Below, piece after piece: positions 1,213-4,532 of a stretch of 64,000 nt of DNA. The notes beneath the pieces were generated by a model that was not told the origin of the DNA, ran no database searches, and saw only the letters and a list, made by a program, of their open reading frames with translations. This DNA comes from Microbispora sp. ZYX-F-249. Its GTDB lineage: Bacteria; Actinomycetota; Actinomycetes; Streptosporangiales; Streptosporangiaceae. Where the stretch lies: NCBI RefSeq assembly GCF_039649665.1, contig NZ_JBDJAW010000001.1:434001-498000 (forward strand), given 5' to 3'. The position numbers and the translations under genes were made by a program. How positions within the stretch are numbered: the stretch's first letter is position 1; the number at the start of each line of letters is the position of its first letter.

Positions 1213-2868
1213 ATGGAAGGCGTCGATCTCAACGCTGTATGGGCTCGGGCGCTCAGGACCCTGCTCGACGAGGGCGTCTCGGGGCAGCAGCGGGCGTTCC
1301 TGCAGATGACGCAGCCCTCCGGCCTCATCAACGACACGATTCTCCTGGCGGCCCCCAACGACTTCGCCAAGGAGGTCATCGAGGTACGCCTGCGCCCGCT
1401 GATCGTGCACGCGTTGTCGCAGGAGCTCGGCCGGCCCGTGCGGATCGCCGTGATGGTGGATCCCGGCGCCGGGATGTCCGCCCCGTCCGACCCCGCCCCC
1501 GCACCGGCGGCGGACCATCGTCCACAGTCGCCGTCCACAGGTTATCCACAGGCCGGCTCGCAGGCTCCCCGCTTCCCCTTAGGCGAGGACGGCCCGATCC
1601 GGCGCGACGCGGAGCCGCACGGGCAGCACTATCCACAGGCCCAGCAGTATCCACAGCCTCCACAGCACATGTCCCCGCCGGACCGCCCGCAGCGGCCCGG
1701 CGGCTACTCCCCCGAGCCGCCCCCCGCGCCCAAGCCCGAGCCGGTTCCCGGGCCGGGCCCCGTGTCCGGCCCCGTACCCGGTGCCGGGCAGAACCGGTGG
1801 GACGCCCGGGGCGGCCGCACCTCCGGCGAGCCGGCCCGGCTGAACGCCAAGTACACCTTCGAGACCTTCGTCATCGGCGCCAGCAACCGCTTCGCGCACG
1901 CCGCCGCCGTCGCGGTCGCCGAGGCCCCCGCCAAGGCGTACAACCCACTGTTCATCTACGGCGACTCCGGGCTGGGCAAGACCCACCTGCTGCACGCGAT
2001 CGGCCACTACGCGCAGAGCCTGTACGACGGCGCCCGGGTGCGGTACGTGAGCTCCGAGGAGTTCACCAACGACTTCATCAACTCCATCCGCGACCACAAG
2101 GCCGACGGGTTCCGCTCCCGTTTCCGCGCTGTGGACATCCTCCTCGTCGACGACATCCAGTTCCTCGAGGGCAAGGAGCAGACGCAGGAGGAGTTCTTCC
2201 ACACCTTCAACACCCTCCACAACGCCAGCAAGCAGATCGTCATCTCCAGCGACCGGGCGCCCAAGCAGCTCGTGACGCTGGAGGACCGGCTGCGCAACCG
2301 GTTCGAGTGGGGCCTGATCACCGACGTCCAGCCGCCCGAGCTGGAGACCCGCATCGCGATCCTGCGCAAGAAGGCGATTCAGGAGGGGCTGGCCGCGCCG
2401 CCCGACGTGCTGGAGTACATCGCCAGCCGCATCGCGACGAACATCCGCGAGCTGGAGGGCGCGCTGATCCGGGTCACCGCGTTCGCCAGCCTCAACCGGC
2501 AGTCCGTGGACATCCAGCTCGCCGAGATCGTCCTCAAGGACCTCATCAGCGAGGACGCGAGCCCGGAGATCACCATCTCCCTCATCATGTCCACGACCGC
2601 CGAGTACTTCGGCGTCTCGCTCGACGACCTGTGCGGAAGCTCACGCTCGCGGGCCCTCGTCACCGCCCGGCAGATCGCCATGTATCTGGCCCGTGAGCTG
2701 ACCGACCTGTCCCTGCCGAAGATCGGCCAGCAGTTCGGCGGGCGCGACCACACCACCGTGATGCACGCGGAGCGTAAGATCCGGTCGCTCATGGCCGAGA
2801 GGCGCTCGATGTACAACCAGGTCAACGAGTTGACGACACGGATCAAGCAGCGCGCACGCAACGCTTAG
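1213..2868 (+). CDS. dnaA: Chromosomal replication initiator DnaA
   Basis: This 551-residue ATPase recognises origin DNA boxes and opens oriC. Domain I covers about residues 1-84. Domain II is a long Pro/Gln-rich linker (about 85-207), larger than in most bacteria but usual for actinomycetes. Domain III follows, with Walker [10 protein letters not shown] at 250-258 and Walker [11 protein letters not shown]. Domain IV ends the protein with the DNA-binding signature [15 protein letters not shown]. The ATG at 1213 has a strong GGGAGGAGG ribosome site. The linker contains three YPQ tripeptides (residues 111-113, 140-142, 146-148) whose codons TAT-CCA-CAG are themselves DnaA-box cores. Confidence 0.98.
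1518..1664 (+). promoter_or_regulatory. DnaA-box cluster inside the dnaA linker coding DNA
   Basis: At least five box-like 9-mers lie in the part of dnaA that encodes the domain II linker: TCGTCCACA at 1518-1526, CCGTCCACA at 1531-1539, a perfect TTATCCACA at 1542-1550, CTATCCACA at 1629-1637 and GTATCCACA at 1647-1655. A partial CCTCCACA sits at 1657. They are read in frame as RPQ, PST and YPQ. The clustering is seen directly; a role in origin function or dnaA autoregulation is inference. Confidence 0.6.
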
Positions 2869-3300
2869 TGCACAGCTGTGGATAACTCTGTGGATCAAAA
2901 AATTCGGCCCTCGGCGGCCGCCGCGTCGATACCCACACCCTCTCCGGCTCTCCAACACGCCGTCCCCACTTGGGGACAACTTTGGGGAAAAGCTGGGGAC
3001 TACTTGGGGAACACCCGTGGACGAGCTGGGGACGCCCTGTGCGTACTCGTCACAGCCGACTCGGCTGTCCCTTTTACCCCGTGGACAACCGGTGGAAACA
3101 TGGTGGATTACTCGTGGACAGAGGGCCCTCCGCCTGGGGAACGGGTGTGGGGACAGCGGGTCCACCCACAATCCACAGGGGGTCCGTCCACCTCTCCCCC
3201 ACACCGGCAGTGGATGAATCAGCTCCCGTGAGCTGCGAAAATGCTCGACATCCACATATCCACACTGCCTAATGAGACGACTTGTATCTCTCCCTCTAAA
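2869..3300. other. Chromosomal origin of replication (oriC)
   Basis: The dnaA-dnaN intergenic region is the standard oriC site of actinobacteria. It contains TGTGGATAA at 2877-2885, TGTGGATCA at 2889-2897, an A/T-rich run at 2894-2904, CGTGGACAA at 3080-3088, CAATCCACA at 3169-3177 and tandem ACATCCACA/ATATCCACA at 3248-3264, plus several weaker sites. A block of six G-rich variants (starts 2971, 2983, 2994, 3005, 3016, 3027) is phased at 11-12 bases. Box orientation switches from mostly TGTGGA-like on the left to mostly TCCACA-like on the right. Confidence 0.92.
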
Positions 3301-3392
3301 GAACTCAAGAACCATAGAAGGGGTTCTGGAGGCACACAGGTGCGGGAGAGTGAAGACTTGACGAAGCAGCGACACCCAGGAGGCTGATCCAC

Positions 3393-4532
3393 GTGATGTT
3401 CCGGATCGATCGCGACGTGCTCGCCGAGGCCGTGGCGTGGACGGCACGAAGCCTTCCGGCCCGTCCCTCGGTGCCGGTGCTCGCCGGCATGCGGCTCGAG
3501 GTGACCGACGACCAGAGGCTGAAGCTGTCCGGCTTCGACTACGAGGTCTCCGCCGAGGTGACCCTGGAGGTGCAGACCGGGGAGCCGGGCGTGGTCCTCG
3601 TCTCCGGCAAGCTCCTCGCCGAGATCACCCGCGCGCTTCCCGCACAGCCGGTCGAGCTGGTTGTGGACGGAGCCAAGGCCGTCGTCACCTGTGGCAGCGC
3701 ACGCTTCACACTTCTCACCATGCCTGTGGAGGACTACCCCTCCCTGCCGGCCATGCCCCCGGCCGCCGGACGGGTCGGCAGCGACGTGTTCGCCTCGGCG
3801 GTCGGTCAGGTCGCCGTCGCCGCGGGCAAGGACGACACGCTCCCGATGCTCACCGGCGTGCGGATGGAGATCGAGGGCGACACCGTGACCCTCGCCGCCA
3901 CCGACCGCTACCGCCTCGCCGTACGCGAGCTGAAGTGGCAGCCCGAGCAGCCCGGCTTCCAGGCCGTGGCGATGATCCCCGGCCGGACGCTGGCGGACAC
4001 CGCCAAGGCGCTGGGCGGCAGCGGCGCCGAGGTCGAGATCGCGCTCAGCTCGGCCGGCGGCACCGGCGAGGGCATGATCGGGTTCTCCAGCTCGGGGCGG
4101 CGGACGACGACCCGGCTGCTCGACCCCGAATTCCCCAAGTACCGCTCGCTGCTGCCCACCGAGTTCTCCGCGCGCGCGGATCTGTCCACAGCCTCGTTCG
4201 TCGAGGCCGTCAAGCGCGTCGCTCTGGTCGCCGAGCGCAACACCCCCGTACGGCTGGCCTTCCGCGGCGGAGAGGTCGTCCTGGAGGCGGGCAGCGGCGA
4301 CGAGGCGCAGGCCGTGGAGGCGCTGCCGGTCGAGTTCGACGGCGACGAGATCAACATCGCCTTCAACCACCAGTTCCTGCTGGAGGGCCTGGGGGCGATC
4401 GACTCCGACGTCGCGCGGCTTCAGTTCACCACGCCGACCAAGCCCGCCATCCTCACCGGGGGCAAGCCTGTGGACGACGGCGGAAGCGAGGACTACCGCT
4501 ACCTCATCATGCCCATCCGGTTGTCCAGCTGA
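3393..4532 (+). CDS. dnaN: DNA polymerase III beta subunit (sliding clamp)
   Basis: This encodes a 379-residue clamp that tethers DNA polymerase III to DNA. It begins FRIDRDVLAEAVAWTARSLP and shows the three repeated clamp folds of the family, ending YRYLIMPIRL as expected. Two adjacent starts are possible, GTG at 3393 and ATG at 3396; AGGAGG at 3378-3383 is nine bases from the GTG and twelve from the ATG, so the GTG is slightly favoured. It lies just right of oriC. Several TGTGGACG-like DnaA-box variants occur in its coding DNA, for example at 4182-4190 and 4469-4477. Confidence 0.97.
   Translation: MMFRIDRDVLAEAVAWTARSLPARPSVPVLAGMRLEVTDDQRLKLSGFDYEVSAEVTLEVQTGEPGVVLVSGKLLAEITRALPAQPVELVVDGAKAVVTCGSARFTLLTMPVEDYPSLPAMPPAAGRVGSDVFASAVGQVAVAAGKDDTLPMLTGVRMEIEGDTVTLAATDRYRLAVRELKWQPEQPGFQAVAMIPGRTLADTAKALGGSGAEVEIALSSAGGTGEGMIGFSSSGRRTTTRLLDPEFPKYRSLLPTEFSARADLSTASFVEAVKRVALVAERNTPVRLAFRGGEVVLEAGSGDEAQAVEALPVEFDGDEINIAFNHQFLLEGLGAIDSDVARLQFTTPTKPAILTGGKPVDDGGSEDYRYLIMPIRLSS

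Follow-up and report, generated by a model that had tools for sequence, protein, structure and literature searches.

Genes and DnaA boxes at the locus

The window, by which we mean the whole stretch of 64,000 nucleotides that was analyzed, has a gene order that we read from its open reading frames as rnpA-rpmH, dnaA, dnaN, a gnd-like gene, recF, and gyrB. A phmmer comparison of the window's DnaA with solved DnaA chains gave 8btg_A as the best match (E = 4.1e-141) and aligned the GGRDHTTV stretch of domain IV, and among named DnaA loci the nearest, with 81-83% identity, belong to Planotetraspora, Sphaerimonospora, Acrocarpospora, and Microtetraspora. The genome is probably that of a Microbispora or of a genus close to it. 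The gap between dnaA and dnaN, the usual place of oriC in actinobacteria, measures 524 bp here and holds a cluster of DnaA boxes, with 15 core sites on the + strand and 7 on the - strand. Cumulative GC skew over the window has only a shallow minimum, at 3001-4000. The features of the region, in the order in which they lie between the two genes, are as follows.

1213..2868, + strand: dnaA (551 aa; ORF list and phmmer), upstream border of oriC
2877..2897, + strand: pair of consensus DnaA boxes, TGTGGATAA (2877) and TGTGGATCA (2889), 12 bp apart
2971..3035, + strand: array 1, six DnaA-box-like 9-mers at steps of 12-11-11-11-11 bp
3036..3079, no strand: inter-array gap, its sequence nearly unconserved except CCTGTG and TACCC
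3038..3046, + strand: cap element TGTGCGTAC, 11 bp past box 6, TGTG present and GGA absent
3080..3121, + strand: array 2, CGTGGACAA, GGTGGAAAC, GGTGGATTA, and CGTGGACAG at 3080, 3091, 3102, and 3113 (steps 11-11-11 bp)
3135..3156, + strand: array 2 resumed past one blank slot, with TGGGGAACG at +55 (3135)
3146, + strand: TGTGGGGAC at +66 of array 2, its TGTG in phase, overlapping the core site at 3148
3148, + strand: core site TGGGGACAG, 13 bp past 3135 and out of phase
3209..3217, + strand: lone box AGTGGATGA, at +129 of array 2
3248..3264, - strand: two DnaA boxes, TGTGGATGT and TGTGGATAT, overlapping by one base and facing the low-stability stretch on the dnaN side
3266..3320, no strand: candidate unwinding element, made up of a GC spacer, CTAATG (two degenerate DnaA-trio-like triplets), and then an A/T-rich stretch
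3393..4532, + strand: dnaN (379 aa; ORF list and dnaN search), downstream border of oriC

Two phased arrays on one strand

The first-pass annotation had described six motifs phased at 11 bases, and their starts at 2971, 2983, 2994, 3005, 3016, and 3027, all on the + strand and at spacings of 12, 11, 11, 11, and 11 bp, proved exact. It placed the base in which most of them depart from the strong box at position 2; this was an error, the change from TGTGGACAA to TGGGGACAA, the sequence of box 1, being at position 3. Its picture of a single array was also incomplete in that it passed over the second array, in which all steps are 11 bp, together with the sites at 3135 and 3146-3148, the TGTG at 3038 that follows the last box by 11 bp, and, close to dnaA, the consensus pair with its 12-bp step. 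The consensus pair lies 82 bp upstream of box 1, and its internal spacing is 12 bp in 64 and 11 bp in one of the 65 sequences, the window among them, whose array 1 scores well. The boxes of array 2 in the window start with C or G rather than T, and array 2 starts 53 bp after box 6 (53 or 54 bp in relatives).

The core.G[GT]GGA occurs on the + strand 15 times in the 524-bp gap and 194 times in the whole 64 kb, and its longest run at 11/12-bp spacing is six in the gap and two in the remainder of the window. The gap was dinucleotide-shuffled 5000 times; runs reached three at most, once, and never four or more. Random placement of 15 sites (20,000 trials) gave a longest run of five, again once. 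Three TGGGGA at 11-bp steps occur a single time in the organism's own whole genome, in this array, and the reversed control does not occur there.

Conservation of the spacing

We followed the pattern through several samples. A first set comprised 80 named loci fetched with DnaA, of which 78 gave a dnaA-dnaN gap. Among these named loci, runs of at least three at 11/12 bp are found in Streptosporangiaceae, Actinomadura, Thermomonospora, and Nocardiopsaceae, and the longest run is two in six Cellulomonadaceae-type loci, four Nocardioides, and five Frankiales/Acidothermaceae MAGs. An order-wide search of 345 genomes, including 14 further species of the window's GTDB genus, used a four-box pattern at 11-bp steps and its reversed control: the pattern is found in 214 genomes and the control, counted by eye, in 16. 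The 131 genomes without a run of four include nearly the whole genus g34 (5 of 40 genomes matched), and genus g18 gave 0 of 7. Among the 30 order matches listed, 25 hold dnaA and dnaN, one of these being the window itself.

In a sample of the class, the pattern is present in 25 of the 41 genomes that belong to the order and in 28 of 353 outside it, where the control, again counted by eye, is found in 10 of 353. Thirteen of the 28 loci outside the order lie at dnaA/dnaN, and 12 of these come from one family, f19; the DnaA DNA of two f19 loci was compared, and the nearest named locus is a Frankiaceae MAG. A 12-bp step comes right before the 11-bp steps in three of six such Frankia-like loci that were inspected, and one of the six has a 23-bp step there, as if 12 + 11 with a lost box; the 11-11-11 itself is the search pattern, so that the preceding 12 (3/6) is the sole new information from these loci.

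The main survey took the 700 bp upstream of dnaN from 80 genomes hand-picked among the best-listed of 342 dnaN matches, plus the window, giving 81 sequences from 27 GTDB genera, with near relatives favored and genera g34 and g55 left out. The most frequent neighbor spacings are 11 bp (411), 12 bp (149), 22 bp (119), 53 bp (34), and 54 bp (31), counts that are inflated by kinship and not independent; safer are the genus-level figures, with the 11-bp spacing in 25 of 27 genera and the 12-bp spacing in 24 of 27. Loss of the 11-base phase in close relatives had been named beforehand as a result that would tell against the array, and the phase held: of 794 spacings of 6-36 bp in the 81 sequences, 689 fall at 11/12/22/23/33/34 bp and 6 at 16/17/27/28 bp. 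The usual signature reads 12, about 70-95, 12-11-11-11-11, 53/54, 11-11-11-22, 73, and the frame is kept because lost boxes leave 22-bp steps.

A recent, functionless tandem duplication, with the 11-bp period as a by-product of copying, could account for units that are similar to each other and for linkers that are often alike. It would leave unexplained why the spacing recurs in almost every genus although the flanking lengths vary, from 71 to 96 bp between the consensus pair and array 1 and from 310 to 492 bp between array 2 and dnaN. Moreover, units in the same slot are more alike across genera (8.33 of 11 positions) than neighboring units are within a genome (7.44 of 11), and the array is therefore old rather than recently duplicated. 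We reject slippage on this slot-specific likeness and on the spacing kept while flanks vary, and consider a duplication origin most improbable. Spacer lengths from the consensus pair to array 1 appeared to cluster at about 73, 82, and 94 bp, but helical quantization of these lengths was not significant (p = 0.086, 18 genus medians).

Rigid distances extend past both arrays, over 3080-3264, in the window and in relatives. Past array 2, 59 of 67 sequences have their first TGKGGA at +55, a box at +128/+129 is present in 60 of 70 anchored sequences, and the equivalent of the - strand boxes, by a strict pattern, at +169 or +176-178 in 44 of the 70.

Array length, slot identity, and the cap

Six slots make up array 1 in 60 of the 81 sequences (109/110 bp to array 2; two of the 60, G328 and G329, score poorly), five in 4, and seven in 5, with 12 unclassed. 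The five-slot arrays belong to genera g30 and g31 and start 99 bp before array 2; the seven-slot arrays, 120/121 bp before it, come from g61 and from four g18 sequences in which one slot is blank. The distance from the end of array 1 to array 2 stays at 53-54 bp in all three classes. The g18 sequences retain the frame despite the blank slot, and their filled slots are TGTGGA or GGTGGA. In g50, which accounts for two of the 12 unclassed sequences, the signature appears farther from dnaN in longer stretches, with one or two slots decayed (12-11-11-11-11-54-11-11-21-22-73 in L221 and 11-11-11-11-53-11-11-22-22-73 in L222), as though extra DNA had come to lie between dnaN and the origin. The inter-array gap has an identity of 0.33 between genera, vs 0.27 when shuffled, and array 2 one of 0.82, for a set of 48 sequences from 12 genera all chosen for the 109/110 distance, so that the gap length is constant by construction.

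Individual slots have their own identities across 58 six-slot sequences. T stands at position 1 of boxes 2, 3, 4, and 6 of array 1 in all 58 and of box 1 in 56, and G at position 3 of boxes 1, 2, 3, 4, and 6 in 48, 56, 46, 45, and 34. Box 5 starts with C or G in 45 sequences, and its third base is T in 55. In array 2, a leading T is absent from boxes 1 and 4 throughout and present in 6 of 58 sequences at box 3 and in 26 at box 2. TGGGGA and TGTGGA replace each other at the same slot (47 and 8 of 58 at box 1; 34 and 22 of 58 at box 6). The slot past box 6 begins with TGTG in 58 of 58 and contains the GKGGA core in none. Behind the final slot, all 4 five-slot and all 5 seven-slot sequences likewise show TGTG with no GGA, and the TGTG cap thus travels with the end of the array. 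An inverted repeat, GTCCCC-ACTT-GGGGAC, lies over the start of box 1 at 2962-2977, where TGGGGACGG on the - strand faces the box; it is found in 6 of the 81 sequences, all from the window's genus.

Array 1 is rich in G, with five GGGG runs in all 11 sequences from the window's genus, and such runs, with loops of 7-8 bases, might fold into a G-quadruplex on the G-rich strand and regulate opening or access of DnaA. We hold this to be highly improbable. In place of four conserved G runs, array 1 has fewer than four in 21 of the 65 well-scoring (well-anchored) sequences and none in G330 (g65); the four seven-slot g18 sequences have no GGGG, and the phase is retained in such GGGG-poor sequences. 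Array 2 in the window has no GGGG either (15 of 58 relatives have one), TGTGGA is accepted in place of TGGGGA at the same slot, and a G-quadruplex needs neither a strict 11-bp step nor a GGA core.

Polarity and comparison with known origins

Box 2 lies at +12 of box 1 in 62 of the 65 well-anchored sequences and at +11 or +13 in none. Read 5' to 3', 12-then-11 occurs in 56 of the 81 sequences and 11-then-12 in 4; for 24 Streptomyces/Kitasatospora loci, the figures are 9 and 2 (one of these loci, L078, is recorded as Streptosporangium nondiastaticum and was counted with Streptomyces), and neither order was found in 21 other named loci.

The same order is found in Escherichia coli. On the R4 strand of K-12 oriC, sites at 390, 378, 367, 356, and 345 give 12-11-11-11. 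We take the sites beyond R4, C1, R1, R2, and R5M to be those named I3, C2, C3, tau2, I1, and I2; with these names, the right array (R4-C1-I3-C2-C3) has 12-11-11-11 in the 5'-3' direction of TGTGGATAA, as does array 1, and the left array (R5M-tau2-I1-I2) has 11-11-11, as does array 2. In both bacteria the arrays consist of weak-looking sites on the same strand, 2 bp apart, and the E. coli site at 290 of L220, TGGGATCAG, has a G at position 3 as the window boxes do. The published gaps are 3 bp between R4 and C1 and 2 bp within the arrays, and growth of the oligomer runs away from R4 (PMC6727663, PMC4451416). In the window, 9-mers of one orientation at 11-bp steps are likewise 2 bp apart, and the 12-bp first step corresponds to a 3-bp gap at the 5' nucleating end. 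By analogy, an oligomer in the actinobacteria would start on the dnaA side and extend toward dnaN. In contrast to E. coli, both window arrays face one way, array 1 has five to seven slots, and the core GKGGA is mostly clear; also, the left array of E. coli faces the same way as R1, the box on its unwinding side, whereas the window arrays face opposite to the boxes on the dnaN side. In step order and polarity, array 1 as a putative DnaA array is equal to the R4 side of E. coli, and is thus of a kind already known, of which the window's predicted tracks are a longer and more rigid variant with length changes by whole units.

Read from the sequence, the pattern says that something would recognize the array slots in register. 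DnaA is the candidate reader because TGGGGA and TGTGGA swap at one slot, as is expected of one reader that also binds TGTGGA, and because the g18 slots are filled with TGTGGA or GGTGGA. Another main reader, such as an AdpA- or MtrA-like regulator or an iteron-type factor, could be suspected from the regular deviation of array 1 from the strong box and from a cap with TGTG and no GGA, and oriC-binding regulators besides DnaA are known in actinobacteria (PMC4285127). The motifs given there for AdpA (TGGCSNGWWY) and MtrA (GTCACAGCG) are, however, unlike the array unit, the g18 slots speak against such a reader, and the spacing is identical to that of known DnaA arrays; we therefore regard it as very unlikely. 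The weak boxes might also be a store that does no more than titrate DnaA or tune dnaA/dnaN transcription, without any oligomer geometry, and further boxes do lie upstream of and within dnaA. Titration requires number and not phase, and it leaves the fixed 12-11 order and the inter-array distance unexplained, making this account quite unlikely as well. Our preferred reading is that DnaA assembles along the arrays as an oligomer.

Other origins share parts of this layout. The Streptomyces oriC, with 19 DnaA boxes in two groups, also lies between dnaA and dnaN, and weak boxes are bound better by S. coelicolor DnaA with ATP (PMC3411110). It differs from the window in its short runs (longest 4, in 23 loci), in having boxes on both strands, and in its longer origin. 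Thermotoga maritima DnaA pairs best on same-direction boxes with a 2-bp gap (PMC10316083), a preference that fits the window arrays, but the T. maritima oriC has five boxes, one of them inverted, and no long array. Arrays such as those in the window are undescribed for these genera in the open-access literature searched; older papers on Streptomyces oriC outside it (Jakimowicz 1998, 2000; Majka 2001) may contain part of the picture.

The probable unwinding side

The least stable 40-bp segment is centered at about 3300 in the window and lies 200-229 bp past box 1 of array 2 in 59 of 70 anchored sequences. This low-stability stretch comes after the - strand boxes, a GC spacer, and a CTA triplet, and by a loose pattern the triplet is present in 80 of the 81 sequences, one of which (G210) is probably spurious. 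The DnaA-trio consensus is 3'-GAT-5', and a published search rule asks for three triplets (PMC8287927); CTA is this consensus seen from the opposite strand. The order of tandem boxes on the dnaN side, GC spacer, CTA triplet, and A/T-rich DNA is that of a Bacillus-type BUS. We nevertheless rejected assignment to this type, because the window has two triplets, below the published three (PMC8287927), and three are found in just 1 of 81 sequences; in 79 of the 80 sequences matching the loose pattern there are at most two, and these are degenerate. Three CTA triplets are seen on the dnaN side of the Frankia-like loci L115, L125, and L126.

An A/T run at 2894-2904, pointed out in the first-pass annotation alongside the array, is indeed there, but the importance hinted at was not borne out: only 5 of 81 sequences carry at least five consecutive A behind the second consensus box, and these all belong to the window's genus (5/11). 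We keep it as an alternative unwinding site because the open complex of M. tuberculosis has been mapped to -500 to -518 from dnaN, i.e., toward dnaA (PMC2607554), a distance from dnaN about that of the A/T run. Unwinding on the dnaN side, at about 3270-3320, is nonetheless the likely arrangement.

A proposed model for assembly of the starter complex

Altogether, we consider it very probable that the region between dnaA and dnaN is the origin from which a Streptosporangiaceae-type actinobacterium copies its chromosome and that its array of weak DnaA boxes would act as a directional track for a DnaA oligomer. The best reading of the region is that it holds two putative same-strand tracks for DnaA oligomerization under a fixed spacing rule; the original idea of a same-face track of weak boxes is in this respect the best supported, owing to the conserved phase, with two arrays in place of one. 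From the sequence we infer that the boxes are weak, as well as the identity of DnaA as reader, the direction of growth, and the site of opening. The strictness of the spacing among near relatives is probably that of a ruler for building the starter complex.

In our model, DnaA would sit on the consensus pair at 2877/2889, and ATP-DnaA would load at box 1 of array 1, cross a 3-bp gap (the 12-bp step), and then continue across 2-bp gaps (the 11-bp steps). The oligomer would resume on array 2 at a fixed distance. The resulting complex, arranged head to tail and close to a single face of the DNA, would point to the - strand boxes and the A/T-rich stretch, and the strands would open in this stretch before dnaN. 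Filling of the weak boxes, TGGGGA in array 1 and [C/G]GTGGA in array 2, would depend on the level of DnaA and its nucleotide state, and we propose that the weak boxes set the timing of initiation because their filling hinges on these two factors. Binding to the TGGGGA boxes may also be too weak to matter.

It is tempting, if doubtful, to go further and speculate that a grammar of 12-11-11-11 from the nucleating end, common to E. coli and these actinobacteria, is ancient or has been repeatedly selected; that the ruler is quantized, with whole 11-bp slots gained or lost (5, 6, 7) and the distance between tracks fixed; that the TGTG cap ends each track and blocks growth; and that the two kinds of weak box fill at different levels of DnaA-ATP.

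Weak DnaA sites are usually hard to spot in sequence, and here weak-looking sites are visible by eye, with conserved step and direction and with natural versions of five, six, and seven slots. The need for a continuous, phased DnaA oligomer on duplex DNA thereby becomes directly testable, with natural origins and with half-turn insertions. A review has expected spacing requirements to become apparent as weak sites are found in more origins (PMC4451416).

DnaA boxes upstream of and within dnaA

Consensus-like DnaA boxes also lie 5' of dnaA, with TGTGGACAA at 984 and a pair 11 bp apart, TGTGGATCA and TGTGGATGG, at 1095 and 1106; their position suggests that DnaA may regulate its own gene. Within dnaA, six TCCACA cores (- strand DnaA boxes, TTATCCACA among them) are found at 1521-1664, in the coding sequence for the linker that joins the N-terminal part of DnaA to its AAA+ part. 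They may form a DnaA-binding cluster embedded in the gene, or may reflect codon use in YPQ repeats. The corresponding part of dnaA has no such core in the 13 Streptomyces/Kitasatospora loci scanned; the Streptosporangiaceae loci L002-L019 and L052 each carry one or more. In Thermomonospora echinospora (L048), five close TGTGGA cores, three of them 15 bp apart, lie at offsets 1046-1139 of dnaA.
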